Positions 16,934-45,406 of a stretch of DNA of 64,000 nucleotides are shown piece after piece (position 1 is the stretch's first letter; the number at the start of each line of letters is the position of its first letter). The notes under the pieces are model-generated. The model was not told where the DNA came from, did no database searches, and was given only the letters and a program-made list of their open reading frames with translations. Source of the stretch: Brevundimonas huaxiensis (lineage in GTDB: Bacteria; Pseudomonadota; Alphaproteobacteria; Caulobacterales; Caulobacteraceae); NCBI RefSeq assembly GCF_014218725.1, contig NZ_JABBJE010000005.1, positions 124,001 through 188,000 on the forward strand, in the 5' to 3' direction. The position numbers and the translations under genes are program-made.

Positions 16934-17357
16934 AACGGCGGCGACGCGGATCCAGGTCTATCTCACCGATCCGCGCGTGGTAGCGGCGCTCCAGCGTGAA
17001 GCGCGCGCGGCCAATATCCCGATCAGCCAAGCGGCGGGCCGGTCTCTTGCGAAGGGATTGGCCAGAAGCCTCCCGGCCGATCCGGACGACCGGTTGCTTC
17101 AACTCGACCGGGCCCTGAGAGACCACATGCGGTCCACGGCGCGGGATGTCCAGATCATCCAGGAACTGGTCATTGAAGTTGCCCGCGCCTTCTTCATGCG
17201 CCTGCCGGACGCCATCACCGACCAGGATCCCGTCGCCCGGGCCGCGGTCGATCGGCGGATCGAACGGTTGCTGGACGACACCGCCGCGCGGTTGATCTCG
17301 GGCGTGAGACCGCAGCGCGAGGATATCACGGCCGGGTCTTTGGGCCGCGCCGAATGA
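16920..17357 (+). CDS. Ribbon-helix-helix-like conjugation accessory protein
   Basis: The 145-residue protein begins TRIQVYLTDPRVVAALQREARAANIPISQAAGRSL, which has the strand-helix-helix pattern of CopG-like DNA-binding proteins. A helical C-terminal half follows. Genes of this kind regularly sit between virD4 and trbB in Trb-type elements. It may be a relaxosome accessory or regulator; the exact family is not certain. The start lies inside the virD4 3' end and the stop overlaps trbB as ATGA. Confidence 0.65.
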   Translation: MRGRETAATRIQVYLTDPRVVAALQREARAANIPISQAAGRSLAKGLARSLPADPDDRLLQLDRALRDHMRSTARDVQIIQELVIEVARAFFMRLPDAITDQDPVARAAVDRRIERLLDDTAARLISGVRPQREDITAGSLGRAE

Positions 17358-18280
17358 GTGTTCACCCCATCGTCGGCGAACGGAAGCTGGAGGCGCTTCG
17401 CCACGCCCTCGGGGCCGACGTCCTCGCTGCGCTGACGGATCCCCAGGTCGTCGAGATTCTCGCCAATCCCGACGGACGCCTTGTCCTGGATCGTGTCGGT
17501 TCCGGACGCGCGGATACCGGTCGCCGGCTTGAGCCGGAGGCTCGCGAGCGCGTTGTCCGGCTGATCGCGGACTATGTCGGCGACCCCGTGACCCGGGAGA
17601 ACCCGCGTCTCGCCGGCGTGCTGCCCGTCACCGGGGAGCGGTTTCAGGGGTTTCTCCCGCCGGTCACCGCCGGGCCTGCGTTCTCGATCCGGAAGCGCCC
17701 GACCGTCATCTGGACGCTGGAGGACTACGTCCGCGACGGCGTGATGACGGAGGCCCAGGCTGAGCTCCTGCGCGGCGCCGTGCGGGAGCGCAGGAACCTC
17801 TTGATCTCCGGCGGCACCGGTTCGGGGAAGACGACGCTTGCCAATGCGCTGCTCGCGGAGCCGGCGTTCGCGAACGATCGTGTCTTCCTGATCGAAGACA
17901 CGCCCGAACTTCAATGCTCTGCGTGGGATCTCGTCGCCACGCTCACACGCCGCCACCCTGTCCCGATCGGCGTCGTCGATCTGGTTCGCGACGCCCTGCG
18001 GATGCGGCCCGATCGGATCGTGGTCGGCGAGATGCGCGAGGGGTCAGCCGCGCTGGAAACCCTCAAGGCTTGGAACACCGGCCACCCGGGCGGTCTCTCG
18101 ACGATCCACGCCAACTCGGCGCGTGAGGCCCTGTCGCGGATAGAGAATCTTCTCGCCGAGGTCGGCGTGTCAATGCCGCGTAGCGTGATCGTCGAGGCCA
18201 TCGGCGTCATCGCGCACATCGGTCGCACGCGTGATGGACGCCGTCTCGACGAGGTGATTCATCCGCAAGACCTAGGCTGA
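17354..18280 (+). CDS. trbB: Conjugal transfer ATPase TrbB (VirB11-like)
   Basis: TrbB is the hexameric secretion ATPase at the base of the mating channel. The 308-residue protein has Walker [10 protein letters not shown] (152-160), an Asp box ([11 protein letters not shown]), Walker B-type [11 protein letters not shown] and the His box THGG-like section [15 protein letters not shown]. The start overlaps the previous stop by four bases. Unlike every other junction in the operon, its 3' end is not followed by the next trb gene: a 5.8-kb insertion separates it from trbC. Confidence 0.95.
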
Positions 18281-18297
18281 CGAAGTCAGCGCTCGTC

Positions 18298-18336
18298 ACG
18301 CCCAAGTTGAAACCTAGATTAACGCCAAGACTCAAC
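18298..18336. repeat. Two near-direct repeats before the STAND gene
   Basis: ACGCCCAAGTTGAAAC (18298-18313) and ACGCCAAGACTCAAC (18322-18336) are related and spaced by eight bases just ahead of the start codon. They may be an operator or a leftover of insertion. Support is weak. Confidence 0.3.
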
Positions 18337-18338
18337 GT

Positions 18339-21300
18339 GTGCATAGTCGCGCCTTCAATGGTCTGGATCGACACGTGCCACAATCTCCCGAACTCGCCGG
18401 TGGCGCCGGTTTCAAATTCGAGGACGAGGTCAGTGGGGCCTACCTCGCCTCGCTCCTGACGCGTACGGCCGCGCCCGGGACCGGCGATCGCGTGGTCACG
18501 CGCGTGGCCCTGCAACAGCGCGACTTCGGCGAGCCCCTTGATGACCTGATCGTCGACTCGATCGGTCTCGACGGGGGCGAAGCCCGACTCAGCGTGCAGG
18601 TTAAGAGCAGCCTGACGATCAGCGCGGCGACGTCGAACTCGGATTTCCGCGAGATCGTCCGGGACGCTCTGGCCACCCTGCGCAAGACAGACTTCCGCGA
18701 AGGCGCGGATCGCTTCGGCGTGGTCACCGGATATGTCGCGACCCAGAAGGCCAAGACACTCAACCAGCTGATCGATTTCGCGAGGAACAGCGTCGAGGCG
18801 GTCCACTTCTTTGATCGGTTCAGCAGCAGGGGCCATGCGAGCCAGGAAGCGCGGATCCTGCTCACCGACCTGAGAGCGCTGGCAGACGCCTACAGTCCGG
18901 CGCCGATCTCCGATGGGGAACTCCACCGGCTTATCAGCCACTTCGCGCTGATCGAGTTCGACTTCCAGTCGTCGGCGTCTCGCGCGCGCTCGGACGGCGT
19001 CGCGCGCGCTGCACAAGCTTTGACGGATGAGGCGGCGGGTCAGGCTTCGCTCCTTTGGTCGCGGCTGTGCCATATGGGCGGCCTCGCGGCCAAGGCCGCT
19101 GGCGTGTTCGACCGACCGAGACTGCTCAGGGAGGTCAAGGCGGTCGCTCCCCTCCAGGGGTTGGGCGCCCTTAGACCCGATCTGCTGCGACTGTCCGAAC
19201 TCTCACAGGCCTGGGTCTCCGATATCGAAAAGGATGTGAGCGGCGTCACCGTGCCACGCGCCGCCTTGCGCAAAGCGCTGATTGAAAAGATGGCCGCGGG
19301 TCGACTGGTCCAGATCACCGGCCTGCCGGGCAGTGGCAAATCCGTGCTCCTGAGGATGGAGATCGAGGACGCGCTCGCGCAAGGGCCGGTTCTTTTCCTG
19401 AAACATGACCGTCTGTCCGGGACCAGCTGGACGTCCTTCGCCACCGCCAACGGCCTGACCGCGGCATCGCTCGACGACGTGATGGCTGAAGTCGGCTCCG
19501 TCGGCACCCCGACCCTGTTCATTGACGGTGTGGACCGGATCGAGAAGGAGCATCGGGGGGTCGTGCTCGACGTCGTCCGGGCCGTTGCGACGGTCGAGGG
19601 GTTGAAAGACTGGCGCATCGTGATGACGCTGCGCGACACCGGGATCGGCCCCTTGCGCAACTGGCTGGGCAGCGCTTTGTCGGCGCTCGGCGTCCAGACA
19701 CTCGAGGCGCCTGAGCTAGACGATTCCGAAGCGGCTGCGTTGGCCTCGGACATCCCCTCTCTGCAACCGGTCCTGACCTCGAAGGGGGCTGTTCGGGAAA
19801 TCGCCAGACGTCCCTTCTTCGCCAAGATCCTGCAACAGGCCAGCATGGCGGGCGGCGACGCGACCGTTCTCCATTCAGAGGTGGATCTGATCCGGAACTG
19901 GTGGCTCAATGGCGGGTACGCCGCGGACGGCAAGGACGCTCTTCTTCGCCAACGCGCGATCGTTGATCTGGGACGCAGGCGGGCCCGGGCGCTCAGCAAG
20001 CCGATCGCGATCGCCGGACTGCAGACCAGCACCGTTGAGCAAATCCCTGATCTCGTTTCCGACGGAATCCTCAAGTTCGTCGTTCCGGGCGTCTCCCTGC
20101 GCTTCGCCCATGACATCTTCTTCGAATGGGCCTTCTTCCAGACCCTCGTCGACTGCGCTGATGACTGGCCGGATGAACTGGTTGAGGCAGGCCAGCCGCC
20201 AGCGTTTGCACGGGTCGTGGAACTCTTCTCCCAATCCCTGTTCCCGTCAGAAAAGTGGGCGATCACCCTTGGAAACCTTTCGACCCAGCAGATCCGCAGT
20301 CAGTGGATCAGGGCTTGGCTCCTAGGCCCAATCGGCTCGACGGTCTTTCCGAACGAAGCGAAAGCCTACGAGGATGTGGTCTTCGTGAACGAGGGCGCGT
20401 GGCTCTACAAGGCGCTGGTCTGGTTCCAGGCCGAGAGAACCACGCCGAACCCCGTCGTCATCGGCGGCGACCTGCCCCCGGAAACCCGGATCCGGATGGC
20501 GGACTCCCTGGGTTGGCCGTCGGATGTTGAGAGCTGGGCCCGCCTGATCTGGTTCCTGGTCGAGCGGATCGACCGGGTTCCGATCCGGCTACAGCCCCAG
20601 GTCATGGCCGTCTTCACCGTCTGGCAGAACATGTTCGCCGACATGAAGAACCCTGTTTCCGACGTCCTGCTCACCGTGGTCGGTCGGTGGCTTTCCAATT
20701 TGGGCGACGGCCCTGACGACAGCATCTCGAGATGGCGCCGGCGACAGGACGGCAGCTCTCGCCGTACCGCGTATGTCACCCTCATCCTGCGTGCCGCTCG
20801 CGCCTATCCCGATCACGCCACCGCCTATCTGAGCACGCTTGTCGCGTCCGAAGACATCGATGAGCCTGAGTTCGAGGAAGTGGTCGCCTTCTCGCCGATC
20901 CTGGCCGAAACACATGGATCGCTCCTCGTTGAGGTGACCCTGAAGCATCTGAAGGAGGAGCTGCCGGCCGACCAGAAGGAGCGTGAATTTCGTGAGAACG
21001 AACGCGCCGCCCGGCGACGCCAGGCGGCGATGGCCATTCCGGAAGCGGAACGGACGGTCGATCAGCAGCGGGTGGCGGACGGTCTGGGCATGTCGTTCGG
21101 TGGCCGGTCCTTCTCGTACCACGACTGGAAACGGCTCGCCCTCGACCGCGATCTGAAGACATTCTTCCCCGCCTCTCCACTGAGGCAGCCCTATCCCGCC
21201 CTGTTTCAGCATGCGCCGGACGAGGCCATTCGCTTGGTGACCGACCTGTCCAACCACGCCATCACCGCGTGGCGACAGCTACACACCCTCGACTACGAAA

Positions 21301-23720
21301 CGCCGGGCACGCCGATCCCGATCGTGCTGGATTTCCCGTGGGGACGTCAGACCTTCTGGGGCGGTGAGCGCGAATATCTCTGGTCGCGCGGATTGCAGGG
21401 ACCCAAGGCGCTCGGCTCCGGCTATCTGGCGCTCGAAGACTGGGCCGTCGACCAGCTTTCCAAAGGCGCGGACCTCGACACGCTGATCCGGCGGATCATC
21501 GACGGCAATACCTGCGTCGCGGTCCTTGGTGTCGCCGTAGCCCTCGCGCTGCAAAGCGGGACCCTGTCCGCCGCTTCCGCCGTGCTTGTTCAGTCCCAGC
21601 GTCTCTGGGCCGCGGATCAGGCCCGATTCCACAAGGATCTCGTGGAGTCGCGCGCGGCCCTAATCGGCTTCAAGGCCGATCGCGACCGGGCGCATGTCGA
21701 GGCGATCGAACGGGCCCTGGCCCGTCCGATCCGTCGTATGGAGCTCCGCAACCTCGGCCAGCGCTTCGTCATCGGCGGGGGCCCGCTGTCAGACGCGGTG
21801 CGTGCGGTGATCGAGGCTTTCCCGACCACTCTACCCTTCTTCTACGAAGAGCACCGTACGAACAACGAAGCGGTGGCCTACCACACGGAACGAGCGGTGA
21901 AATTCGCGGAGGTTGCGGATCTCAAGACCTACGCCATCCAGCCGACAGACAATCCCGGCGAGGTGGCGGTCTTCCACACCCCGCCCTCGCTCGACAGCGA
22001 CGAGGCGGTTGTGGCGCGGGCGGCTGCGGCCAGGACCCTTCTGGAATCGAGCCTCTGGTCGTGGGCGGCCGGGGCCTTCGAAACCGGAACCTTGGGAGAG
22101 CGTTTCACGCTGACTTCAGCGGCCGTGGCCGCACGGACGATCGATGCTCCCGGCCTATTCCAAGACGTTGGAGAGCTGGACGAGCTGGTGGGCATGCGCA
22201 GAGGAGCCGTCGCCGCCGTCGCGGCCCTCCTGCTGAAGCACCGGCACGACACCGTTGAAGACGATCTCGTCTGGGCGCGCGACGTGACCTTGCGGGCCCT
22301 CCAGACCCCGGAACGCCAGGACGCGCTGTGGACCGCAGGAATGATCGTGCCTTGGCATCAGACCATTTTCGCTTGCCGGGCCATCGCTTCCGACTTGAGA
22401 GCAGGGACGGGCGATGACGCCTTGGCCGAAGCCTTGCTCGGTCTGATCGCCCATCCGTTACAGGCTGTCGCCCTGTCCGCCTTCGCAGAAGCCGTGGCGC
22501 TGATCGACGTCCGACCGCCGCTCGGCTGGGCCGCGCTCGGCCTTGCGTTCGATCTTTGCGACATCAAACCCAGACGCGGCCGTAACGGTTACAACGATCC
22601 TCTTCACACCCCCGCCGATCTCCGGGCGGCGGTGACCCGGGCGACGACCGCCTATCGAAAGGGCGAATTCGGCACGGCCTTGCCTACCCCGCCGGCGCCT
22701 TGGCTCGAGGCGGCGGGCCCGAACCGTCGTCGGCTGGAGGCCATGGCCGAGCCTGAGGACGAGTCGGAGGACGGCGTAAAATGGGTGATGAATCCCCGCT
22801 CCTGGGACCATCACCTGGCGGCGGAACTGCTTCGCCACATCCCGGTCGAAGCGATCACTCGAACGGATGGTCGCGAGGCCTTCCTGCTCTTCGTGGATCA
22901 GATGCTGGAGTGGACCATCCAGAAGATCGCGCCCTCCTGGAGCCGCGACCAACGCCGCCAACGTCCCGACACCTATGACTGGGACCCCGAGCTGGGCCGT
23001 CTGCTCAGCCGTGTAGCGGGCGTGCTGGAGATGGACGCGGTCCGGGACCGGGTTCTGACGCCAATCACCACCTTGGGCGGGTCGGACCCTTACACCCTCT
23101 TGGCGCCGTTCACCGATACCTTCGTCTGTCGCTATGTCTTCGACGCCCCCGTGCCGCCCGCCCACGTGATGGAGGTTCTCGATGTTTGTCTTGATCGGCT
23201 GCTGAAGGATTCCGTCTTCTCTCGAACCAGCTACCGCGCCGGAGAACTCCACGGGTTCGACCAACCCGCGCTGGTGAAAGCTCTGTTGTTCGTCCAGATC
23301 GATGAATTCGCTGGCGGAGCCGCCCGGTTCGTCAACCGGGATTGGCGAGATGTCGGCATGGTGCTGGGCCACGTCGCGAAATTCGTAGCGGCGGCGGGCT
23401 GGTCTCCGTTCGTGATGACCCAGTTTCTGACGCTCTGCGAACGCGCCAGGGATCACTATCCGCCAGAGCATTTCGCCGACCTGACGCTGGCCGTCCTTAG
23501 GCTCGGCGATGGCGAGGAACTGCCGGGCTGGCATGGAACCACCCTTGCCGCCAGGATTGCCGGTCTGGTGCAGATTTTCTCGGAGCGGGCGGCGCCGTTG
23601 TCTCAAGACCTAGCGCTCAAGCTGCTCCAGATTCTCGATCAGTTGGTCGATCTCGGTGATCGCCGCAGCGCCGCGCTGCAGCAAGGCGAGATCTTCCGCG
23701 AGATTCAGCTCACGTCCTGA
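18339..23720 (+). CDS. Giant STAND NTPase with PD-(D/E)XK nuclease-like N-terminus, Avs-like
   Basis: The 1793-residue protein has three parts. Residues ~20-170 (GGAGFKFEDEVSGAYLASLL, then LDDLIVDS and SVQVKSS at 85-91) look like a Mrr/DUF4297-type nuclease, with Asp and Gln-x-Lys in PD-(D/E)XK order. Residues ~300-620 are a P-loop NTPase of STAND type: Walker A GLPGSGKS (328-335), Walker B TLFIDGVDR (392-400) and the distal motif RFAHDIFFEW (588-597). The remaining ~1200 residues are helical, without catalytic motifs, and fit a sensor. This is the plan of Avs-like anti-phage proteins, where binding a phage protein triggers DNA cleavage; activity here is inferred. It splits trbB from trbC. 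The start is GTG at 18339; GTG at 18375 is an alternative. Confidence 0.7.
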   Translation: MHSRAFNGLDRHVPQSPELAGGAGFKFEDEVSGAYLASLLTRTAAPGTGDRVVTRVALQQRDFGEPLDDLIVDSIGLDGGEARLSVQVKSSLTISAATSNSDFREIVRDALATLRKTDFREGADRFGVVTGYVATQKAKTLNQLIDFARNSVEAVHFFDRFSSRGHASQEARILLTDLRALADAYSPAPISDGELHRLISHFALIEFDFQSSASRARSDGVARAAQALTDEAAGQASLLWSRLCHMGGLAAKAAGVFDRPRLLREVKAVAPLQGLGALRPDLLRLSELSQAWVSDIEKDVSGVTVPRAALRKALIEKMAAGRLVQITGLPGSGKSVLLRMEIEDALAQGPVLFLKHDRLSGTSWTSFATANGLTAASLDDVMAEVGSVGTPTLFIDGVDRIEKEHRGVVLDVVRAVATVEGLKDWRIVMTLRDTGIGPLRNWLGSALSALGVQTLEAPELDDSEAAALASDIPSLQPVLTSKGAVREIARRPFFAKILQQASMAGGDATVLHSEVDLIRNWWLNGGYAADGKDALLRQRAIVDLGRRRARALSKPIAIAGLQTSTVEQIPDLVSDGILKFVVPGVSLRFAHDIFFEWAFFQTLVDCADDWPDELVEAGQPPAFARVVELFSQSLFPSEKWAITLGNLSTQQIRSQWIRAWLLGPIGSTVFPNEAKAYEDVVFVNEGAWLYKALVWFQAERTTPNPVVIGGDLPPETRIRMADSLGWPSDVESWARLIWFLVERIDRVPIRLQPQVMAVFTVWQNMFADMKNPVSDVLLTVVGRWLSNLGDGPDDSISRWRRRQDGSSRRTAYVTLILRAARAYPDHATAYLSTLVASEDIDEPEFEEVVAFSPILAETHGSLLVEVTLKHLKEELPADQKEREFRENERAARRRQAAMAIPEAERTVDQQRVADGLGMSFGGRSFSYHDWKRLALDRDLKTFFPASPLRQPYPALFQHAPDEAIRLVTDLSNHAITAWRQLHTLDYETPGTPIPIVLDFPWGRQTFWGGEREYLWSRGLQGPKALGSGYLALEDWAVDQLSKGADLDTLIRRIIDGNTCVAVLGVAVALALQSGTLSAASAVLVQSQRLWAADQARFHKDLVESRAALIGFKADRDRAHVEAIERALARPIRRMELRNLGQRFVIGGGPLSDAVRAVIEAFPTTLPFFYEEHRTNNEAVAYHTERAVKFAEVADLKTYAIQPTDNPGEVAVFHTPPSLDSDEAVVARAAAARTLLESSLWSWAAGAFETGTLGERFTLTSAAVAARTIDAPGLFQDVGELDELVGMRRGAVAAVAALLLKHRHDTVEDDLVWARDVTLRALQTPERQDALWTAGMIVPWHQTIFACRAIASDLRAGTGDDALAEALLGLIAHPLQAVALSAFAEAVALIDVRPPLGWAALGLAFDLCDIKPRRGRNGYNDPLHTPADLRAAVTRATTAYRKGEFGTALPTPPAPWLEAAGPNRRRLEAMAEPEDESEDGVKWVMNPRSWDHHLAAELLRHIPVEAITRTDGREAFLLFVDQMLEWTIQKIAPSWSRDQRRQRPDTYDWDPELGRLLSRVAGVLEMDAVRDRVLTPITTLGGSDPYTLLAPFTDTFVCRYVFDAPVPPAHVMEVLDVCLDRLLKDSVFSRTSYRAGELHGFDQPALVKALLFVQIDEFAGGAARFVNRDWRDVGMVLGHVAKFVAAAGWSPFVMTQFLTLCERARDHYPPEHFADLTLAVLRLGDGEELPGWHGTTLAARIAGLVQIFSERAAPLSQDLALKLLQILDQLVDLGDRRSAALQQGEIFREIQLTS

Positions 23721-24077
23721 CTGAGCTGAGGGTCGCGGAAGAGGCTGATCGTCTCGGCGTCAATATTCTGCAGGCGCCGGAAACCGTGCTGACCGGCTCA
23801 CGCCCGGTCAAATCTTGCGGCGGCATCGCCCGGAAACCCAGGCGATAGTCTGGCGAAATCGGCCGAAACCCTTGCCCGGCAGGCAAACGGCGTCGTTACC
23901 GGCAAGTCGTCTGCAAGTCGAAATACATGCAACCAGTATGAAACTCGAATCGTCCAGGATCCAAACTCCATCGCTCGGATAATATATTCACAGGACGCGT
24001 TGACGGCCTGTGGATACTTTGGCTTCCTGATGACCGTCAGCGCAAACCATTGCGCATCGGCTTCAGGAACTTAAATC
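23721..24077. other. Gap between the STAND gene and trbC
   Basis: This 357-base gap has no gene. It is lower in GC than its flanks and holds an AT-rich box near its 3' end (23978-23991). It probably contains the right edge of the inserted STAND module and a promoter for trbC onward. No terminator hairpin with a T-run was seen. Confidence 0.4.
23978..23991 (+). promoter_or_regulatory. AT-rich box GATAATATATTCAC upstream of trbC
   Basis: It resembles the box at 14893-14905 ahead of virD4. TAATAT within it is close to a -10 hexamer, though no good -35 was found. It would allow the trbC-slt block to be transcribed despite the insertion. Confidence 0.35.
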
Positions 24078-24398
24078 ATGCGACGTTTACTTCAACGTGG
24101 CCTTTCGGCCGCGACGGTGACTTGCGGCCTTCTCATCGCTGGCCAGGCAATGGCGGGCGGATCCGGGATGCCTTGGGAAGGCCCGCTTCAGCAGATCGTG
24201 GAATCCATCACCGGCCCGGTCGTCCAGGCCGCCGCCGTCGTGGCGGTGGTGCTCTTCGGAGCCGGCGTGGCCATGAGCGAGAACGGCTCATCCATGCGGC
24301 GGGGGCTGGGCATCCTGTTCGGCCTGTCGATCGCCTTCGCCGCCTCGACCTTCTTCCTGCAGTTCTTCGGATTCGCCGGCGGCGCGGAGATCGCCTGA
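24078..24398 (+). CDS. trbC: Conjugal pilin TrbC (VirB2-like)
   Basis: TrbC is the pilin precursor of the mating pilus. The 106-residue protein has a signal sequence (to about residue 26, GQAMA), a first long hydrophobic segment (VVQAAAVVAVVLFGAGVAM) and a second one (LGILFGLSIAFAASTFFLQFFG), the usual two-helix pilin. Its stop overlaps the trbD start as TGATG. It is the first transfer gene after the inserted STAND gene. Confidence 0.9.
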   Translation: MRRLLQRGLSAATVTCGLLIAGQAMAGGSGMPWEGPLQQIVESITGPVVQAAAVVAVVLFGAGVAMSENGSSMRRGLGILFGLSIAFAASTFFLQFFGFAGGAEIA

Positions 24399-24676
24399 TG
24401 CCTGAAACGCTGTCCGATCACCGTCCGGCCGGCTGGGATCTGCCGGTCGCCGGCGCCCTGACCGAGCCCGTGACCCTGGCGGGCATGCCGCGGGACTACG
24501 CCATCCTGATGGGCACCGTCGCTGTGGTGCTTGGGCTGGCTTTGCGGATCTGGTGGCTGGGCCTGCTGTGGTGGGCGGTCGCCCATGCCATCGGCCTCTA
24601 TGCCGCCCGGGCCGACAAGCGGTTCTTCGACGTGCTTCGCCGCCACCTGGCCCTCCCCGGCCATCTCGATGCGTGA
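24398..24676 (+). CDS. trbD: Conjugal transfer protein TrbD (VirB3-like)
   Basis: This small inner-membrane protein of the secretion channel has 92 residues and two adjacent hydrophobic segments (YAILMGTVAVVLGLALRIWWLGLLWWAVAHAIG). It ends in a short basic region. VirB3-type proteins work with the TrbE/VirB4 ATPase, whose gene follows eight bases later. The start overlaps the trbC stop by one base. Confidence 0.9.
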   Translation: MPETLSDHRPAGWDLPVAGALTEPVTLAGMPRDYAILMGTVAVVLGLALRIWWLGLLWWAVAHAIGLYAARADKRFFDVLRRHLALPGHLDA

Positions 24677-24684
24677 GACTGATC

Positions 24685-27144
24685 ATGCGCTTTCTGGATG
24701 AACATCGCCGCCGGCCTGCGCTCCTGGCTGATCATCTGCCCTGGGCGGCCATGGTCGCGCCGGGGGTCGTGCTGAACAAGGACGGCTCCTTCACCTGCGG
24801 CCTGCGATTCCGGGGGCCCGATCTCGAGTCGGCCTCGGATCTGGAGCTGATGTCGGTCCGGGCGCGGCTCAACAACGCCCTCAAACGTCTGGGCAGCGGA
24901 TGGTGTCTGCATGTGGAGGCGCGTCGCCGTCCCGCCCAGGCCTATCCCAAGAGCGAGTTCGAGATCGCCGCCGCCTGGCTCGTCGACGCCGAGCGCCGCA
25001 CCCTCTTCGAGACCAGCGAGCCGGCTTACGAGACCGACTACCGGGCCGCGTTGACCTGGCTTCCACCGGCGGACCAGACCCGCCGGGTCGAGCGGGTTCT
25101 GTTCGACGGAGCCGATCCCGCGAGCCGGGACTGGCGCACCGCGCTGGACGCCTTTTCGCGCGAAACTGCACAGATCGTCGACCTTCTGGCCGACGCCCTT
25201 CCGGACGTCGCCATGCTGGACGATGCGGCGATCCTGACCTGGCTCCACGACTGCGTTTCGCCCCGAACGGTCCATCTCGAACTGCCCGCGACGCCGATGT
25301 TCCTAGACGCTTGGCTCGCCGATGCGCCGCTTCTGGGCGGGGTGGCGCCGACGCTCGACGGTCAGACGCTGAAGGTGGTCTCGGTGCGGGGTCTGCCGGC
25401 GAGCACGCGGCCAGGGCTGCTCGACGCCCTCGGCGCCTTGCCCTTCCCCTATCGCTGGAGCGCTCGCTGGATCGGCCTCGACAAGGCGGATGCCGAGGTC
25501 GAGCTGGTCAAACTGCGCAAACGCTGGTTCGCCAAGCGCAAGGGCGTCGGCGTGCTGCTGCGCGAAGCCATCACCAAGGAGGAGGTCCCGCTCCTCGACA
25601 CGGATGCCGCCGCCAAGACCGACGAATGCGACGGCGCCCTGGAGGCGCTCGGCTCGGACGCCTGCGCCTATGGCTATCTGACGACGACGATCACGGTGAT
25701 GGCGCGCGACCCCGACCGGGCGTCGGAGCAGGCCCGGGCGATCGAGGCGACGCTGAACGCCCAGGGCTTTGTCGCCCGGACGGAGGATCTGAATGCGGTC
25801 GAGGCCTGGCTCGGCTCCCTGCCGGGCGAGCCCTATGCGGACGTCCGCCGCCCGCTGGTCTCCACCCTGAACCTCGCCGACCTTCTTCCAGTCTCCGCCG
25901 TCTGGGCCGGACCGACCGCAGACCCGCGCCTGCAGGGGCCGCCGCTGGCGGTCGCGCGAACCAGCGGGTCCACGCCTTTCCGACTCTCCCTGCATGTCGG
26001 CGACGTCGGCCACGCCATGGTCGTGGGGCCGACCGGCTCTGGAAAGAGCGCCTTGCTCGCCTTTCTGGCTCTCCAGTGGTTCCGCTACCCGAAGGCCCGC
26101 GTCGTCGTCTTCGACAAGGGCCGCAGCGCGCGCGCCGCGACCCTGGCCGCCGGCGGGCGCTGGCACCCACTGCAGCCGGGCGGAGACTTCACCCTCCAGC
26201 CGCTCGCCCGGATCGAGGACGAAGGCGAACGCGCCTGGGCCTCGGAGTGGCTCGCCGACGCTGTCCGCCTCGCAGGCCTGGACCCGACGCCGCGCGTCCG
26301 CGAAGAGATCTGGGCCGCGCTCGGCGCCCTGGCCCAGGCCCCCGTCGCACAGCGCACGCTGACCGTTTTCACGGCCCTGGTCCAGGACAGGGCGGTGGCG
26401 GCCGCCCTGGAGCCCCTGACGCTCAAGGGACCTCACGGCGCCCTGATCGACGGCGTCGCCCCGCAGGACGAAACGCTCGCCGCCTTCGAGTGCTTTGAGC
26501 TCGAGAGCCTGATGGCGACGCCATCGGCGGTCGCCTCCGTGCTCGCCGCCCTGTTCCATGAGATCGAGCGCGGCTTCGACGGCCGGCCCACGCTCCTGAT
26601 CCTCGACGAGGCCTGGCTGTTTCTCGGCGAGACAGCCTTCGCGGCCCGCATCCGCGAATGGCTCAAGACCCTGCGCAAGAAGGGCGTGGCGGTGGTGTTC
26701 GCCACCCAGTCGCTCGACGACGTCGTGCGCTCGTCCATTGCGGCGGCCCTGATCGAGAGTTGCCCGACACAGATCTTCCTGCCCAACCCTCGCGCGCTCG
26801 AGCCGGCCTCGGCCGACCTCTACCGGATGTTCGGCCTGAACCGTCGCCAGCTGGAGCTGATCGCCTGGGCGACGCCCAAGCGCACCTACTATTGGCGACA
26901 GCCCGATGGGCGGCGGCTGTTCGATCTGAAGCTGACCGGAGCCGGCCTCGCGCTCTGCGGCGCCTCGTCTCCGGCTGACCAGACCCTCATCGAGAGCGTG
27001 CTGGCGGCTCTCGACCCGGCCGATCTGCGGCCGGACCGCTTCGCCCGCGAATTCCTCAAAGCCAAAGGAGTCCAGCATGTCGACAATGTCTTCGACAGCT
27101 TCGATCCGCCCGCCCCGGAACCCGTCCGGTACGCGGCGGAGTAG
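24685..27144 (+). CDS. trbE: Conjugal transfer ATPase TrbE (VirB4-like)
   Basis: TrbE is the largest and most conserved ATPase of type IV secretion. The 819-residue protein has Walker A VGPTGSGKS (about 446-454), Walker B LLILDEAWLFLG (about 635-646) and the family motif VVFATQSLDDV. The ATG at 24685 is chosen because it starts at MRFLDEHRRRPALLADHL, the usual N-terminus; a longer frame upstream overlaps trbD. The 3' end overlaps trbJ by 68 bases. Confidence 0.95.
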   Translation: MRFLDEHRRRPALLADHLPWAAMVAPGVVLNKDGSFTCGLRFRGPDLESASDLELMSVRARLNNALKRLGSGWCLHVEARRRPAQAYPKSEFEIAAAWLVDAERRTLFETSEPAYETDYRAALTWLPPADQTRRVERVLFDGADPASRDWRTALDAFSRETAQIVDLLADALPDVAMLDDAAILTWLHDCVSPRTVHLELPATPMFLDAWLADAPLLGGVAPTLDGQTLKVVSVRGLPASTRPGLLDALGALPFPYRWSARWIGLDKADAEVELVKLRKRWFAKRKGVGVLLREAITKEEVPLLDTDAAAKTDECDGALEALGSDACAYGYLTTTITVMARDPDRASEQARAIEATLNAQGFVARTEDLNAVEAWLGSLPGEPYADVRRPLVSTLNLADLLPVSAVWAGPTADPRLQGPPLAVARTSGSTPFRLSLHVGDVGHAMVVGPTGSGKSALLAFLALQWFRYPKARVVVFDKGRSARAATLAAGGRWHPLQPGGDFTLQPLARIEDEGERAWASEWLADAVRLAGLDPTPRVREEIWAALGALAQAPVAQRTLTVFTALVQDRAVAAALEPLTLKGPHGALIDGVAPQDETLAAFECFELESLMATPSAVASVLAALFHEIERGFDGRPTLLILDEAWLFLGETAFAARIREWLKTLRKKGVAVVFATQSLDDVVRSSIAAALIESCPTQIFLPNPRALEPASADLYRMFGLNRRQLELIAWATPKRTYYWRQPDGRRLFDLKLTGAGLALCGASSPADQTLIESVLAALDPADLRPDRFAREFLKAKGVQHVDNVFDSFDPPAPEPVRYAAE

Positions 27145-27856
27145 GTCCTCGGTCCTGGCGGCGACCGCCCTGGTGCTCGCCGCAGTCGCAGGCTTCCCGC
27201 CGCCCTCCGCCGCCCAGCAGATCGTCTACGATCCCCGCGCCCATGTGCAGACCAGCCTCCAGGCGGCTCGGCAGTTGGAAAGCCTCGCCAATGACGCGCG
27301 GGCGCTGGCCAATCAGGCGCGCAGCCTCGCCGCCTCGCCCTACAGTCATCTCGCCGGGTCATCGGAGACCCTGCGCGACATCGGCGAGCTGGCGCGGACC
27401 GTCCGGGGCACGGCATCGACCCTCGACGGTGTCCAGCGGCAGTTTGCCGATCTGTACCCGGACGACCTGTCTCTCTCGGATCTCACGGCGCTCGGCGCCG
27501 ACCGGTCCACGACCGCCCGACGGACCGCCGAGGATCTGGCGCGGACGGCGGCCGAACTGGAGCGGCTGGCCCAGAGCCGGGACGGGCGTGTCCGGGGCGC
27601 CATGGCCGCCAGCGAGGCGGCGGAGGGCGAAACGGCCGCGATCCAGTCCTCGACCCAGATGTTGTCCGTCCTCGCGGAGGATCTGGCCAGCATGCGGACC
27701 CTGCTTCTGGCCCAGTCCCGGCTGATGGCCGAGGGCGCGGCGCGCCAGGCCGCCGAAAGGGACGCCGCGATCGAGGCCCGGCGCCGCTTCTGGGCGCGGG
27801 GCGCGTCCACGCCGACCGCCCCGTCCTTCAACCCCTTGCCCCACGCTCGGGACTGA
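27077..27856 (+). CDS. trbJ: Conjugal transfer protein TrbJ (VirB5-like)
   Basis: TrbJ is a periplasmic minor pilus component. The 259-residue protein has a basic N-terminus and a hydrophobic signal segment (SSVLAATALVLAAVAGFPPPSAAQQ, cleaved near residue 46). It is followed by long helical stretches rich in Ala, Arg and Glu that are likely to form coiled coils. The sequence QIVYDPRAHVQTSLQAARQLESL after the signal is typical of TrbJ. It starts inside the 3' end of trbE. No trbK-like lipoprotein gene follows. Confidence 0.9.
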   Translation: MSTMSSTASIRPPRNPSGTRRSRSSVLAATALVLAAVAGFPPPSAAQQIVYDPRAHVQTSLQAARQLESLANDARALANQARSLAASPYSHLAGSSETLRDIGELARTVRGTASTLDGVQRQFADLYPDDLSLSDLTALGADRSTTARRTAEDLARTAAELERLAQSRDGRVRGAMAASEAAEGETAAIQSSTQMLSVLAEDLASMRTLLLAQSRLMAEGAARQAAERDAAIEARRRFWARGASTPTAPSFNPLPHARD

Positions 27857-27864
27857 GGAGCGCG

Positions 27865-29235
27865 ATGATGGCTGGCCCCGGAATGGAGACCCCGAACGAG
27901 CTGATGGTGGTGTTTTCCGACACCGTCACCGCCGGCTTCGACGCCCTGTCCGGCTCGGTCAATGGGGTGTTCGGACTGCTGATCGCGCTCGTGGTGGCGC
28001 TGACGGGCATCCAGTGGGCGCTCTCGCCCAACCGCGACGTCCTCGCCTCAGGCTTCGGCAAGGTGCTGCTGATCGGGGCCTTCGCCTGGCTCATCAATGA
28101 CTGGCAGGCCCTGTCGGAAACGATCTACGCCGGCTTCCTAGAGCTCGGCCTCACCGCCGGCGGAGGCTCCCTGTCGCGCGCGGAGTTTCTCAATCCGGGC
28201 GCCATCCTCCAGCAGGGCTGGGAGATCGTGAAGGCGCTGGGCGAAACGCCCGCACCGGTCGAGAACCCGCTCGACGTCATGGGAAACATGGCCGACGCCC
28301 TCATCCTCGGGCTGGCCATGATCGGCATCATGCTGGCCTTCGCGATCCTGGCCCTGCAGATCATCGTCTCCCTGCTGGAGTTCAAGATCGTCACCCTGGG
28401 CGGCTTCGTCCTCCTGCCGTTCGGCATCTGGAACAAGACCGCCTTTCTGGCCGAGCGGCCGCTCGGCTACGTCGTCTCCTCCGGGCTCAAGGTATTGGCG
28501 CTGGCCATCGTCGTCTCGGGCGCGCGGACGATCTTCGACCAGCTCCAGCCCTCGGCCAATCCTGACATCTACGAGGCCCTGACCATTCTGGTCGCCGCCC
28601 TGCTGCTGGCCATGCTGGCGATCTTCATCCCGAACCTCGCCTCGGCCCTCGTGACCGGTGGGCCAGCCCTGGGGGCGGGCGCAGCCCTGACGAGCGGATT
28701 GGCTGTCGCCGGCGCCGGGGCCCTCGTGGCGGGCGGCGTGGCGGGGGCCGGAGCCATGGCCGGGCGGGCCGCCGCCGTCAGCGGGTCGTCCAAAGCCGCC
28801 GCAGGCGCGGCCTCCGGGGCGCGCTCCTCCGGAAGCGGACCGTCGTCCGGGAGCTTTCCGCCGGGCGGCGGACCTCGACCTTCGCCAAGACCCGCGCCGG
28901 GCTCCGGCGGCGCTGCGGCGGCCTCAACCCCCTCCCGCGCGTCCGCCTCTCCGCCCGCAGGATCGGGACCATCGCGGTCGACCTCGGCGTCGCCGGCCGA
29001 AGAGTCGGCCGATCGGCCGGCCTCGGCGCCGTCCCTCGGCAAGCCGGCGCCTGACGCCGAGCGCCGCGACCGGCCTTCCCTGTCGGAGGAGAGACCGCCG
29101 GGTGCAGGCAGCGGTCGCACCGCCGGCCGATCCGCCGCCCTCCAGGCCTTCTTCATCGCCAACTCGGCTCGCGCCCTGATGCCGGCCGGCGAGAACAGCG
29201 GCGCCCTCAAACCCACCGTCAGACCCGAGGATTGA
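27865..29235 (+). CDS. trbL: Conjugal transfer membrane protein TrbL (VirB6-like)
   Basis: TrbL is the polytopic inner-membrane core of the channel. The 456-residue protein has about six hydrophobic segments between residues 25 and 300. A long low-complexity tail rich in Ser, Gly, Pro and Ala follows (about 310-430), as in many TrbL proteins. GAGGAG lies four bases before the ATG; a second ATG follows directly. The trbF start lies two bases past its stop. Confidence 0.9.
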   Translation: MMAGPGMETPNELMVVFSDTVTAGFDALSGSVNGVFGLLIALVVALTGIQWALSPNRDVLASGFGKVLLIGAFAWLINDWQALSETIYAGFLELGLTAGGGSLSRAEFLNPGAILQQGWEIVKALGETPAPVENPLDVMGNMADALILGLAMIGIMLAFAILALQIIVSLLEFKIVTLGGFVLLPFGIWNKTAFLAERPLGYVVSSGLKVLALAIVVSGARTIFDQLQPSANPDIYEALTILVAALLLAMLAIFIPNLASALVTGGPALGAGAALTSGLAVAGAGALVAGGVAGAGAMAGRAAAVSGSSKAAAGAASGARSSGSGPSSGSFPPGGGPRPSPRPAPGSGGAAAASTPSRASASPPAGSGPSRSTSASPAEESADRPASAPSLGKPAPDAERRDRPSLSEERPPGAGSGRTAGRSAALQAFFIANSARALMPAGENSGALKPTVRPED

Positions 29236-29237
29236 GC

Positions 29238-29921
29238 ATGCATCCCTTCTTCAAGCCCAAACGCCCCCTGACCGCGTCCCCTGAAGCCACCCCCTATCAG
29301 CGCGCCGGTCAGGTCTGGGACGACCGGATGGGTCTTTCCATCGCCCATGCCCGCAACTGGCGCCGCATCGCCCTGGCCAATCTCGGTCTGGCGGCCTTTC
29401 TCGGCGCGGGCTGGTGGGTCCAGGCGGATCGCGCCGTGGTCCGACCTTTCGTCGTGGAGGTGTCCGACTGGGGACAGACGCAGAGGATCACCGCCCTGGA
29501 CGGCCGTTACGAGCCGACCGAGGCCCAGACCGGCTATGCGCTCGCCCAGTGGATCCGGGACGTCCGCTCTAAGTCGATCGATCCGATCGTGATCCGTCAG
29601 AACTGGCTGCGCGCCTACGACCTCCTGAGCCCCAAGGCCTCCGCCTTCCTGAACGACTGGGCCCAGGCCAACGACCCGTTCGCCGACGCCGGCCGGGAAG
29701 CGGTCAATGTCGAGGTGCTCAACGTCGTCCGCCGCAGCGAGCGAACCTTCGATCTGCAGTGGCGAGAGACCCGCTTCGTCAACGGTCAGCAAGCGGGGGC
29801 CGAGCGCTGGCGCGCCCTCATCACCGTCGCCCATCAGCCGCCCCGCAACGAGGCGGAGCTGATGCGCAATCCCCTTGGCCTCAAGATCGAGGATGTCTCA
29901 TGGACCCCCGACGCTTCCTGA
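29238..29921 (+). CDS. trbF: Conjugal transfer protein TrbF (VirB8-like)
   Basis: TrbF is a bitopic assembly factor. It has a short cytoplasmic N-terminus (MHPFFKPKRPLTASPE), one membrane segment (IALANLGLAAFLGAGWWVQ, about residues 46-64) and a periplasmic NTF2-like domain. The ATG at 29238 is used; a TTG two codons earlier overlaps the trbL stop. It overlaps trbG by 22 bases. Confidence 0.9.
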   Translation: MHPFFKPKRPLTASPEATPYQRAGQVWDDRMGLSIAHARNWRRIALANLGLAAFLGAGWWVQADRAVVRPFVVEVSDWGQTQRITALDGRYEPTEAQTGYALAQWIRDVRSKSIDPIVIRQNWLRAYDLLSPKASAFLNDWAQANDPFADAGREAVNVEVLNVVRRSERTFDLQWRETRFVNGQQAGAERWRALITVAHQPPRNEAELMRNPLGLKIEDVSWTPDAS

Positions 29922-30958
29922 GCGGGACGGCTGTCCCGATCGCCGCCGCCCTTGCGCTTTCCGGCTGCGCCCTGGTTCATGGCGCCGACGGCGGTGTGGA
30001 ACCGATCGCGCTCTCCACCCCGATCGGCCTCGCGGAGCCGCCGGCGGTCGCGCGTCCCGAGCCGGCCCTGGAGACCAGGCCCGATCCGGTCACGGCGGCC
30101 GCTGATCTCGGCTCCACGGCACGGCCCTATCTCGAGACGGTTGCAGCCTCCGCGTCGCCACGCCGACGTCGGGACGCGGCCGCTCCAACCGACAGCCTGC
30201 CTTCCGGACGCGCGGCCATTGCGGCGGCCAACCGGTCGGCGCGCGCCGCCTCCAGCGCGGACGCCTTCGTCGGCGGGGTCCAGGTGTTCGCCTGGTTCGA
30301 CGGGCGGGTCTACGAGGTCTGGACCGCTCCCTTGCGGGTCACCACCCTGACCCTTGCCCCGGGAGAAACCGTGTCGGCCAAGGCGGCCGGGGACACGGTC
30401 CGCTGGCAGATCGGCGAGAGCCAGTCCGGCTCCGGCGTCTCGGCGCGAACCCATGTCCTGATCAAGCCGCTGCAGGCCGGGCTCGAGACCAACCTGGTCC
30501 TGACGACGAGCCAGAGGGTCTATCTCCTGATCCTTCGCAGCGGGTCGGCCGACGCCTTCAACGCCGCCATCGCCTGGGACTACGGGTTTGCGTCGCACGG
30601 CCCCGAGGCCGCCGAGGGGCAGTCCGGCCTGCCGCCGGTCGATGTCGCAGCGGCAACGCCCCAGGGGCCGATCGATGCCCGCTACAGGATCGACCCGCGT
30701 GGGCGGGCGCCGCGCTGGGCGCCGACCGCCGTGTTCAATGACGGCACACGGACCTTCATCACCCTGTCGCCGGACGCCGACATCGATGAGGCGCCGGCCC
30801 TCTTCATCAGGGCCGACGGAGACCTCCAGCTGGTCAACTACCGGCAGGCCGACGGCGTCCTGATCGTTGATCGGATCTTCGATGAAGCGGAGCTGCGGCT
30901 CGGCGATCGTCGACCGCAGATCGTCCATATCCGCCGTCTTCCGGGAGCCGCCCGATGA
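29900..30958 (+). CDS. trbG: Conjugal transfer protein TrbG (VirB9-like lipoprotein)
   Basis: TrbG belongs to the outer-membrane core complex. The 352-residue protein has a lipobox LALSGC (Cys23), a Pro/Ala-rich linker and the VirB9 domain (QVFAWFDGRVYEVWTAPLRVTTLTLAPGE onward). It starts inside trbF and its stop overlaps trbI as ATGA. The lipid anchor suggests that it also fills the VirB7 role, since no separate VirB7 gene is seen. Confidence 0.9.
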   Translation: MDPRRFLSGTAVPIAAALALSGCALVHGADGGVEPIALSTPIGLAEPPAVARPEPALETRPDPVTAAADLGSTARPYLETVAASASPRRRRDAAAPTDSLPSGRAAIAAANRSARAASSADAFVGGVQVFAWFDGRVYEVWTAPLRVTTLTLAPGETVSAKAAGDTVRWQIGESQSGSGVSARTHVLIKPLQAGLETNLVLTTSQRVYLLILRSGSADAFNAAIAWDYGFASHGPEAAEGQSGLPPVDVAAATPQGPIDARYRIDPRGRAPRWAPTAVFNDGTRTFITLSPDADIDEAPALFIRADGDLQLVNYRQADGVLIVDRIFDEAELRLGDRRPQIVHIRRLPGAAR

Positions 30959-32136
30959 TCGATCCCCACAGCGCTGAAACCGCCGGAACTCAACCCGGCA
31001 TGCAGACACCGGCGCCCCCGCCGCCCGTCACGGCTCCCAAGGCCCCGCCGCCGCCCTTGATGGGACGGGCGCCGCGTCCCGGGGCCGTCCGCATCCGCAA
31101 GTCTGTCGTCCAGGGGGCGGTGTTGGTTGCGGCCCTGCTCGTGTCCGGATCTCTCGCCTGGGCCTTCGTGGTCCAGCCGCAGATGACGCGCCAGGCTCGC
31201 GACGCTGCGGACGCCGAGGGCGCAGGCGAGGCGCGAGGCAGCGTCAGGCCTTCGGACCGCGTGACCGACCAGCCGGCGAGCTATGACCGCCTCGCCCAGA
31301 CTGACGCCCTGCCGGAGCGCCGGGGCGCGCCGCCCGAGGCAAGAGAGACCGCGACACCCCCACAGCCCGCGCGCATACTTGCGCCCCCGTACAGCACGGC
31401 TCCCCGCGCGCCGCGGCCGGCGGACCAGGCGGCCGCCTCGGGGCTCTTCTTCGAGGGGGCACCGCGAAGCGGAACCGTCCAGGCCGCCGGCCGATCAGAC
31501 CCGGGTCCCTCGCCCGAGATGCGGGACTATGGGGCGATCTACAGCCCGCACGGCCTCCTGGCGCCCGTGTCCCCCTACGAGCTGAAGGCCGGGGCCGTCA
31601 TCCCGGGCGTCTTGCTGACAGCGGTCGATACGTCCCGTCCCGGTCCCGTCGTGGCCACGGTCAGCCAGAATGTGTTCGATTCCATCACCGGACGTCATCT
31701 CGTCGTTCCGCAGGGGACGCGGCTGATCGGACGCCACGAAGGCGAGAGCGCCCATGGCGATCGCCGGGCCTTCCTGGTCTGGGACCGGCTGATCCTTCCC
31801 AACGGCAAGAGCCTGATCCTCTCGGAGGAGCCCGGCGTCGATGCGCAGGGCTCCGTCGGGGTCCGCGGCGAGGTCGATCGGCGTCTCTGGCCGCTCGGCG
31901 TCGCGACGCTCTTCGCCGGCGCCATCACCACCCTCGGCGAGCTGGCGCGGGGCGGATCAGATGATCGATCGTTCGCCGCCAGTGCCGGGAGCGCCGCGTC
32001 CATTGAGGCCTCCCAGGTCGGGGGACGGCTCATCGACCGCGAGCTCACGGTTCAGCCGTCCATCCGCGTCCGGGCGGGCGCGCCGGTCCGGGTGATGATC
32101 ACCCGCGATCTCATTCTGGAGCCCTATCGCCGATGA
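30955..32136 (+). CDS. trbI: Conjugal transfer protein TrbI (VirB10-like)
   Basis: TrbI spans both membranes and gates the channel. The 393-residue protein has a Pro-rich cytoplasmic start, one membrane helix (VVQGAVLVAALLVSGSLAWAFVV, about residues 46-68), a Pro/Ala-rich periplasmic linker and the VirB10 beta-barrel domain (LKAGAVIPGVLLTAVDTSRPGPV, later VPQGTRLIGRHEG). It overlaps trbG and traF by four bases each. Confidence 0.95.
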   Translation: MIDPHSAETAGTQPGMQTPAPPPPVTAPKAPPPPLMGRAPRPGAVRIRKSVVQGAVLVAALLVSGSLAWAFVVQPQMTRQARDAADAEGAGEARGSVRPSDRVTDQPASYDRLAQTDALPERRGAPPEARETATPPQPARILAPPYSTAPRAPRPADQAAASGLFFEGAPRSGTVQAAGRSDPGPSPEMRDYGAIYSPHGLLAPVSPYELKAGAVIPGVLLTAVDTSRPGPVVATVSQNVFDSITGRHLVVPQGTRLIGRHEGESAHGDRRAFLVWDRLILPNGKSLILSEEPGVDAQGSVGVRGEVDRRLWPLGVATLFAGAITTLGELARGGSDDRSFAASAGSAASIEASQVGGRLIDRELTVQPSIRVRAGAPVRVMITRDLILEPYRR

Positions 32137-34083: not shown

Positions 34084-34219
34084 GACTGATGCGGGCAGTC
34101 AGCACGGTTTCGATGTGTGGTGTCCCGCCATTTCCCGATTTACCGGCCTACTCTCGCATTGGCGCTGACAGCTCGGCTTGAAAGGCCTAACTATCGCGTA
34201 TGTGAAATACGGGAAAGTT

Positions 34220-36052
34220 ATGGCGCTACATCTGGTAGGAGAGACGATTGACCGGGCGCGTGCCCACGCCGCCGCTCGCTCGGGCAACCTCGTGGCCCTG
34301 GTCCGTGGCGTTTATGTGGACGCAGCCGACGACGTCGATGCCGTGATCATGGCGCACGCGGTGCGGATCGCCGCCTATCTTTATCCCCGCGCCTATCTGT
34401 CCGGCGCCTCGGCTCTCCTGTTGGCGCCCACATTGGACGGCCGCCTGTTTTTGAGCGGGCGTCGCAACCAGCGAACACGGATTCGGGGTCTGGAGATTAT
34501 CCAGAACCAAGGGCCGGATGCTCCGTCCACGGTTCCCGCCATCGTCGCTGACGCGATGGGCGAAATTCACATGACGGCCTCGTCCCCCCGCCAGCGTTTT
34601 CTGGAGGCCTTCCGCATCCGCAGCGAGCATGCCGGTGCGATCGACCCCCTCATGCGTCGCCGGATGGCGGAGCGTCTGATCGAAGAATACGGCGACGCGC
34701 GCCAGGCTGCGGACGCCGTATGGGTGCTTGGGCGTCTAATCCGCTGGACTCGCGAAGCCGAGGCCGCCGAACGCTTTCTCGACGCCGCCCATCCGGCCCA
34801 GGCCCCCGCGAATGCGGCCCGGGTGGGTCTGACGGTGGCCTGGCACGGCGCGCCCGTCGGCGAGCTGACCCACGACGGTGTCGAGTGGCGCTGGGCCGCC
34901 ACCGCCAAGGGCCAGCCGCCCCTGGTGCGGCCGACCCGCCCCGGCAGCCTTCCCCCCTTCATCGAATCCCTGCTGCCGGAAGGCTGGCTGGCCGAGATTC
35001 TGGACGCTCGCGACGAGCGTGAGCTCCTGCGAACGGGCCGGCGCTACATGTCGAACATCGCCATCGTCTCCGACCCGGCCGAGCTGGCTGAAGTAACCCC
35101 GGACGTGCTTCAGGGCCGTCTGGCGCAGCACATCGACGACGGGGTCTTCACCGGCCGCTACGAGGGCCCGACACGTCGATCCCTCGAAGAGAGCTTCCAG
35201 GCCAATCTGGCCAAGCTGTTCGCCTCCCGCGACACGCCGCGTCTCTCCGGAATCCAGATCAAGGCGCCGATGTGCCTGACGACGGGCGGCGAGCTCATCC
35301 CGTCAACGGGGGCGCCCTTCACCCATATCCTGAAGCCGGCGGGCACCAACGGCTTCGAAGACCTGCCGATCGTCGAATGGATGGGGTTGGCGCTCGCCCG
35401 CGCCGCCGGTTTCGAAACACCCGACGCCGCTCTTGTCCCCATGCCGGACGGCATGCGCCCGGCCCTTGTGGTCGAGCGGTTCGACATCCGCCGCACGGAC
35501 AACGACGCGCGCCGATATGCGCTGGAGGATTTCTGCTCAATCCTCGAACTGCCGCCCCTGCGCAAGTACGAGGGCTCCATCGAACGCACGGCGCGTGGAC
35601 TGCGCCCCCTGTCGACACAACCGGCCCAGGACCTGGAAATCCTTTACCGGCGGGCGGTTTTCGCCTGGCTCATCGCAGACGGAGATATGCACCTGAAGAA
35701 CCTGGCCCTGCTGAAGATCGCCGACCCCGGCAGCGAGCATTTCGACGAGGTGCGCTTCGCCCCGGTCTATGACGCCGTCACCACGCGGATCTTCCCTGGC
35801 CTGGACAACGATCAGATGGCCCTGACCCTCAACGGCAAACGGGACCGTCTGACCCCCGAGGATTTCCAGGCGCTCGCCCGAACCATAGACCTTCCGGTCG
35901 CTCGGGCCGCGCAACTGACCGCCGACTGCGCCCGGCGCACGGTGGACGGACTGCAAGCCCTGCCGGTGCCGGAACGGATCGCCCCCGGCGCGGATCGTAT
36001 CCGAGACCGGATTTCCGACATCGTCCGCCAGCGCGCGGAGCCTTTCGTTTAG
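34220..36052 (+). CDS. HipA-family kinase fused to an AbiEi-like N-terminal domain
   Basis: HipA kinases phosphorylate aminoacyl-tRNA synthetases or related targets and halt growth. In this 610-residue protein, residues ~200-600 are HipA: VGLTVAWHGAPVGELTH, PPFIESLLPEGW, the catalytic loop LIADGDMHLKNLALL and FAPVYDAVTTR. The first ~130 residues (SGNLVALVRGVYV, AYLYPRAYLSGASALLLAP) resemble AbiEi-type antitoxin or winged-helix domains. No separate HipB gene lies beside it, so the N-terminus may supply the antitoxin or DNA-binding role. The start is uncertain: ATG 34220 is used, with GTG 34202 and TTG 34178 possible. Confidence 0.8.
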   Translation: MALHLVGETIDRARAHAAARSGNLVALVRGVYVDAADDVDAVIMAHAVRIAAYLYPRAYLSGASALLLAPTLDGRLFLSGRRNQRTRIRGLEIIQNQGPDAPSTVPAIVADAMGEIHMTASSPRQRFLEAFRIRSEHAGAIDPLMRRRMAERLIEEYGDARQAADAVWVLGRLIRWTREAEAAERFLDAAHPAQAPANAARVGLTVAWHGAPVGELTHDGVEWRWAATAKGQPPLVRPTRPGSLPPFIESLLPEGWLAEILDARDERELLRTGRRYMSNIAIVSDPAELAEVTPDVLQGRLAQHIDDGVFTGRYEGPTRRSLEESFQANLAKLFASRDTPRLSGIQIKAPMCLTTGGELIPSTGAPFTHILKPAGTNGFEDLPIVEWMGLALARAAGFETPDAALVPMPDGMRPALVVERFDIRRTDNDARRYALEDFCSILELPPLRKYEGSIERTARGLRPLSTQPAQDLEILYRRAVFAWLIADGDMHLKNLALLKIADPGSEHFDEVRFAPVYDAVTTRIFPGLDNDQMALTLNGKRDRLTPEDFQALARTIDLPVARAAQLTADCARRTVDGLQALPVPERIAPGADRIRDRISDIVRQRAEPFV

Positions 36053-43656: not shown

Positions 43657-43794
43657 CCCCAACTTCCACTGGGATTTCGAAGCAGCATCTGGAGGCCGCC
43701 GGTTCGGTTGTTCTAGATTGAGCGGCCCCTCATGCATGGCCCCAAGCCTGAAAACAGATGCGCAAAGCATGGTTTTCTCGCTAGACTTGTCGTG

Positions 43795-45192: not shown

Positions 45193-45314
45193 GGCCTCCA
45201 GAAACCTATTCTCTGAGTCCCGCTCCGGTTGCCGACCCCGACAAACGACGCAATAAGCTGTGCCGCAGTTTCCTGCTGGCATGGCGCTGAGCCTCGGCGC
45301 TTTTCACTTGAACT

Positions 45315-45397
45315 TAACCGCCGGTCGGTTATTTAGAAGGGGTCACGGGCCGCCACACGATCCGCCTTCGGGAGGAGTGCAAAAGGGCGGTCCTTCT
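45315..45397 (+). ncRNA. Structured leader RNA before the Abi_2 gene
   Basis: A hairpin TAACCG/CGGTTA (45315-45331) is followed by a longer fold: AGAAGG (45335-45340) pairs with CCTTCT (45392-45397), GCCGCC (45349-45354) with GGCGGT (45386-45391), and TCCGCC with GGAGGA around a TTCG loop (45361-45376). It ends ten bases before the Abi_2 start, which lacks a clear ribosome binding site. Structured RNAs (the abiF motif) are known beside some Abi_2 genes; identity with it is untested. Confidence 0.5.
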
Positions 45398-45406
45398 CGT
45401 TTTGAG

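Follow-up and report, generated by a model that had tools for sequence, protein, structure and literature searches.

A putative anti-phage Avs-type receptor, distantly related to Avs4, carried as exchangeable cargo between trbB and trbC of a conjugative element in Brevundimonas huaxiensis

Introduction

The nucleases Cap4 (CBASS) and LmuA (Lamassu) share an E/D/QxK active-site pattern; LmuA acts together with other Lamassu proteins, and the nuclease of Avs3 is also Cap4-like. Among the other Avs (AVAST) receptors, Avs4 is bound to the phage portal according to the title of PDB 8dgf, and the available part of PMC12931631 gives as the only robust activator found for Avs5 a protein that is neither terminase nor portal. 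Receptors of the bNACHT25 type, as far as PMC12169576 was available, have an NCH1 C-terminus, were not found to bind the phage coat protein and need host DnaJ. The gene described here lies between the conjugation genes trbB and trbC in a stretch of 64,000 nucleotides from B. huaxiensis (contig NZ_JABBJE010000005.1, positions 124,001 to 188,000; this whole stretch is called the window, and coordinates count from its first letter). Its product, called the receptor below, joins a nuclease, a STAND core and a long sensor. It is probably a single-gene anti-phage Avs receptor that forms a distant sister to Avs4 and travels as exchangeable cargo on a conjugative element of the trb type.

The Gene and Its Place between trbB and trbC

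A preliminary description, made from the DNA letters, had placed trbB and trbC 5.8 kb apart with one large gene between them, and had noted that the other trb junctions overlap or nearly touch. Both observations were borne out. The gap measures 5797 bp and holds a single open frame without a stop before 23720, and the other trb junctions in the window overlap or are separated by no more than about 10 bp, as read from the list of open reading frames (ORFs) with starts placed by eye.

17354-18280, + strand: trbB, conjugation ATPase, left flank (TIGR02782, 357 bits against a cut-off of 305)
18375-23720, + strand: nuclease-STAND-sensor gene, 1781 aa, GTG start (open frame; start placed by homologues)
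24078-24398, + strand: trbC, prepilin, right flank (PF04956, 66 bits against a cut-off of 28)
24398-32136, + strand: rest of the trb operon, trbD-trbI (ORF list; trbE matches NF010447 above its cut-off)

Within trbD-trbI, trbE was the one gene run against family models; the other names are provisional and taken from gene order. The length of 1793 residues given at first had to be revised. Since the homologues examined begin with MPQSPELAGG, the start is placed at GTG 18375, which gives 1781 residues. The GTG at 18339 behind the longer version was rejected, as it lies 12 codons early and the homologues start at its residue 13. The two lysines singled out then, Lys89 and Lys334, become Lys77 and Lys322.

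Non-coding DNA flanks the gene, with 94 bp upstream (18281-18374) and 357 bp downstream (23721-24077). The insert is only slightly less GC-rich (0.62-0.67) than the downstream trb genes (0.70-0.73). A repeat search of 18200-24150 revealed no repeats bracketing the insert, i.e., no transposon or cassette ends; the sole standout was a terminal hairpin.

Domain Architecture, Family and Distribution

A search with the receptor among 5.8 billion proteins scored 7994 candidates and returned 609 proteins at E <= 0.001. The best 120 of these 609 homologues, which include the window's own protein (P0001), cover 99-100% of the query; three are 84, 69 and 55% identical to it, the others 44-48%. The receptor was modelled as two structures, folded separately with 32 sequences each, and its parts are as follows.

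18375-19160, + strand: Cap4/LmuA-like PD-(D/E)XK nuclease domain, residues 1-262
18597-18605, + strand: nuclease active-site motif Q75-V76-K77, with E16 and D56/D57 (residue conservation)
19161-20174, + strand: STAND/NACHT core, residues 263-600
19320-19343, + strand: Walker A, GLPGSGKS (K322)
19512-19538, + strand: Walker B-like TLFIDGVDR (D384, D387, R388)
20100-20129, + strand: RFAHDIFFEW, residues 576-585 (the Avs4 counterpart at the aligned place is HDIYEEW)
20175-23717, + strand: helical-repeat sensor of the Avs4 type, residues 601-1781

The motifs QVKSS, GLPGSGKS, TLFIDGVDR and RFAHDIFFEW, all named in the preliminary description, are present. Asp56, Asp57, Gln75, Lys77, Lys322, Asp384, Asp387 and Arg388, together with His579, Asp580, Glu584 and Trp585, are each identical in 121/121 aligned rows (the query plus the 120 listed homologues), and Gln75 and Lys77 are invariant across 40 N-termini, the window's included. 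Judged by this conservation, the four motifs are not there by chance. The N-terminal domain has the fold and the catalytic residues of a Cap4/LmuA-type PD-(D/E)XK nuclease and would be expected to cleave DNA, the core has the P-loop, the Walker B motif and the fold of a STAND/NACHT NTPase, and the predicted structure of the sensor has the Avs4-type fold. The architecture proposed earlier, an Avs-like protein with nuclease, core and long sensor on a conjugative element, is thereby supported.

No full-length model of this family was found in Pfam, NCBIfam or PADLOC; the partial PADLOC matches are PDC-M54A (43 bits), DUF626_VIII (39 bits) and Avs4 (19 bits). Among the genomes of the same genus, 6/131 contain a match to the receptor, two of them with an intact full-length gene. 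The 55% homologue lies on contig C16 of genome G048 (74826-80171); next to it, a 1504-aa protein without a Pfam match at 1e-5 (L168:13231-17742, - strand) is a candidate defence gene. Relatives of the receptor are also encoded on four IMG/VR contigs (L172-L175); a search of the viral contigs for trbB gave one distant locus, which was set aside. In a 39-row tree built from 34 members of the receptor family and five of Avs4, Pseudomonadota, Nitrospirota, Bacillota, Fibrobacterota, Campylobacterota and Thermodesulfobacteriota are intermixed in order, which points to horizontal transfer of the family; the details of this tree are unsure owing to a quick method and long branches.

On genome contigs, matches came from 141 stretches, of which 117 encode relatives, and 80 loci were kept. 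In none of these 80 does the gene lie between trbB and trbC. With flanks of at most 10 kb, four match the trb or traG (type IV secretion system, T4SS) proteins of the window and 76 do not, a count that diverged T4SS genes could escape. The neighbourhood scan covered 117 of 217 near ORFs at 57 loci, at E 1e-15, with ORFs chosen by length and GC position and short ones mostly dropped by hand. No recurrent partner gene was seen among the scanned neighbours. The 117 near ORFs gave 62 PADLOC families, against 80 from 95 ORFs about 6-10 kb away, where both zones may be islands and families are not equal to genes.

The trbB-trbC Junction as a Cargo Slot

The preliminary description had proposed an alignment of related junctions, and this was run on 31 trb loci, the window included, whose trbB is at least 67% identical. 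A downstream trbC was found in 28 of them and was absent from the fetched stretch in the other three. The 28 gaps fall into 14 of 213-440 bp and 14 of 904-10,223 bp. Only the window, one of the 31 loci, has the receptor gene; the junctions of the other 27 loci with both trbB and trbC are either empty (14) or hold other content (13). A second trb locus in the same genome (C1:840594) has an empty junction of 269 bp. The receptor is exchangeable cargo and not a fixed trb gene.

A 613-aa protein occupies the slot in four loci (scanned in L043, assigned in L040 and L041 by the same ORF and in L044 by the same gap and a shadow ORF). This protein (L043:2334-4172, + strand) had no match in Pfam (E <= 0.001) or PADLOC (E <= 0.0001); by eye only, its sequence is reminiscent of GHKL ATPases. 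Four further loci hold a Fic protein (L034 scanned, with PF02661 and PADLOC SoFic, the others assigned by a similar ORF), and two hold AbiEi/AbiEii (L036 scanned, L048 assigned by the same gap and an AbiEi ORF). The remaining filled slots are one unassigned gap of 904 bp and two loci with TonB-receptor metabolic cargo, so the slot is not reserved for defence. Seven more distant trb loci, L025-L031 (trbB 48-54% identical; two belong to the same genus), all have trbB and trbC either overlapping or 7 bp apart (7/7).

A related element in genome G401 (L167), with 89-97% nucleotide identity by piece, has a decayed copy of the receptor gene beside trbC. This element is decaying, with deletions in trbE-trbJ and in trbG as well as in the receptor gene, and the stretch yielded no trbB. 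A literature search found no paper joining Brevundimonas, integrative and conjugative element and trbC.

Transcription Signals around the Insert

23692-23742, + strand: stem-loop over the receptor stop codon, a possible transcription end, no T run (inverted repeat)
24000-24077, + strand: conserved promoter-like element before trbC, TTGAC at -78 (conservation)

The fold of 23688-23760 has an energy of -38 kcal/mol (z -3.7). TTGAC stands 73-78 bp upstream of trbC in 24/28 loci, and all 24 belong to the same genus; the four loci without it come from a different genus (two genomes), and their trbC start was extrapolated. In the 120 bp before trbC (28 rows), 26/136 columns are at least 80% identical, compared with 4/231 in the 110 bp after trbB (31 rows). 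Taken together, the TTGAC, the conserved 120 bp and the stem-loop suggest that trbC is transcribed separately from the cargo upstream. The earlier proposal that the receptor would be transcribed with the transfer genes has therefore become doubtful, yet consensus scans of both insert flanks for sigma-70 promoters and terminators gave 0 sites, so the element is promoter-like by its conservation only. It presumably resembles the Caulobacter sigma-73 consensus, weakly so at the -10.

Surrounding Element

34178-36052, + strand: HipA-like protein, downstream of the trb genes (PF07804)
37275-44451, - strand: Shango defence system SngC-SngB-SngA (PADLOC SngC 1.8e-240, SngB 9.1e-173, SngA 9.1e-83)
45260-46261, + strand: AbiD abortive-infection protein (PF07751; PADLOC AbiD 4.8e-51)

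SngA, SngB and SngC are contiguous, and AbiD adjoins them. The tyrosine integrase PF00589 has 19 matches in the genome, 0/19 of them on the window's contig, C5. The element may be either integrated or a plasmid, and Shango and AbiD may be part of it.

Proposed Mechanism and Alternative Explanations

The mechanism proposed for an Avs-type receptor is modelled on Avs4 (PDB 8dgf) and on Avs1-4 as presented in the available part of PMC12931631. The helical sensor (601-1781) would bind a folded, conserved protein of the phage. This may be the portal, to judge by Avs4, a tentative choice with somewhat less than an even chance of being right and the least sure point of the proposal. Binding would lead the NACHT/STAND core (Lys322, ATP) to assemble several copies, and this oligomer would activate the Cap4/LmuA-type nuclease heads (Asp57, Gln75, Lys77). 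The heads would then cut cell and phage DNA, so that infection fails (abortive infection). The anti-phage activity of the receptor is likewise argued by analogy. Several observations weigh against this explanation. All Pfam matches of the receptor are below cut-off, and defence genes show no local enrichment near the homologues (57 loci, near ORFs compared with those about 6-10 kb away). Metabolic genes are found among the slot occupants, and the decayed copy in the closely related G401 element indicates that the gene is dispensable there. The sensor model has a predicted template modelling score (pTM) of 0.55, and the two parts of the receptor were modelled separately. The branch between the receptor family and Avs4 is very long and the identity in alignments is 12-18%, which together imply that the specificity may have changed.

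An Avs-type receptor whose sensor has shifted to another protein of the phage, for instance terminase or some early protein, would differ from the best explanation only in the trigger. The very long branch to Avs4, the match to Avs4 by fold and not by profile beyond about residue 1320, and the activator of Avs5 (available part of PMC12931631) all favour such a shift, but the alignment of the sensor with that of Avs4 runs end to end; we regard it as a serious possibility, on the doubtful side. The same architecture could also serve to keep competitors out, by reading a protein conserved among rival plasmids or conjugative elements. The location within the conjugation operon and the further conflict genes that follow downstream would suit this role; it is nevertheless improbable, because the sensor has the fold of a phage-portal sensor, none of the 80 homologous loci has the gene between trbB and trbC, and only four match the window's T4SS within the flanks. 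An addiction module that stabilizes the element is very unlikely: toxin-antitoxin AbiE cargo does occupy the same slot in other elements, but the scanned neighbours include no recurrent partner. Position and strand are what speak for a conjugation gene, serving the trb machinery or its regulation. This is scarcely credible and was rejected, given the 27/28 related junctions that are empty or hold other content, the empty second locus in the same genome, the 0/80 homologous loci with the gene at this junction and the 76/80 that lack a match to the window's trb or traG proteins.

A bolder extension of the Avs-receptor explanation is that the trbB-trbC junction of this lineage is a dedicated, transcriptionally insulated slot, with its own trbC promoter and exchanged cargo, where defence cargo in a transfer operon may be expressed early in new recipients, and that its present occupant founds a new Avs type that combines a Cap4-type nuclease with an Avs4-type sensor with its own trigger. 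The whole of this appears rather unlikely. In trb-type elements, the slot offers a starting point in the search for unknown defence genes. Setting a family with 609 scored homologues and no full-length model in three libraries next to Avs4 narrows the triggers worth testing to a few, and one sensor scaffold combined with unrelated nucleases would be a case of effector swapping among bacterial NLR-like receptors.

Comparison with Known Systems

The closest described system is Avs4 (AVAST type 4; PDB 8dgf; NCBIfam NF041815). The predicted structure of the receptor matches it over 976 sensor residues, end to end, and a profile match over 897 columns covers the STAND core and the first part of the sensor; beyond about residue 1320 the match is by fold and none is found by profile. 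The sensor had been described as free of recognizable motifs and its trigger as possibly new. This view did not survive, since the sensor matches that of Avs4, and the trigger need not be new. Both proteins have the motif HDI(F/Y)xEW and a nuclease in front, which in Avs4 is known by its NCBIfam name. However, the receptor scores 45 bits against the NCBIfam cut-off of 1500, its nuclease domain has no profile similarity to the Avs4 alignment (hhalign probability 0.2), and it is 194 residues longer than E. coli Avs4. Avs4 itself (L160) is encoded on E. coli plasmid NZ_CP027137.1, which is typed as conjugative IncN; close to it lie an antirestriction gene and an antitoxin of the AbiGi family.

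Residues 4-262 share the fold of Cap4 and LmuA. Cap4 differs in its SAVED/CARF domain (PDB titles), whereas the nuclease of the receptor is joined to a STAND receptor. Foldseek matched the N-terminal 640 residues to Avs3 (PDB 8dgc, E 1.6e-9); no Avs3 row appeared among the listed structural matches of the sensor, with no direct comparison of the two sensors. The bNACHT25 type, compared by description only (available part of PMC12169576), also combines a PD-(D/E)XK nuclease with a NACHT core. The available parts of PMC12931631, PMC12169576 and PMC10952713 do not describe the receptor family. Because the receptor falls outside the sequence definition of Avs4 and has another nuclease, we file it under the Avs kind as a new variant, and not as Avs4.
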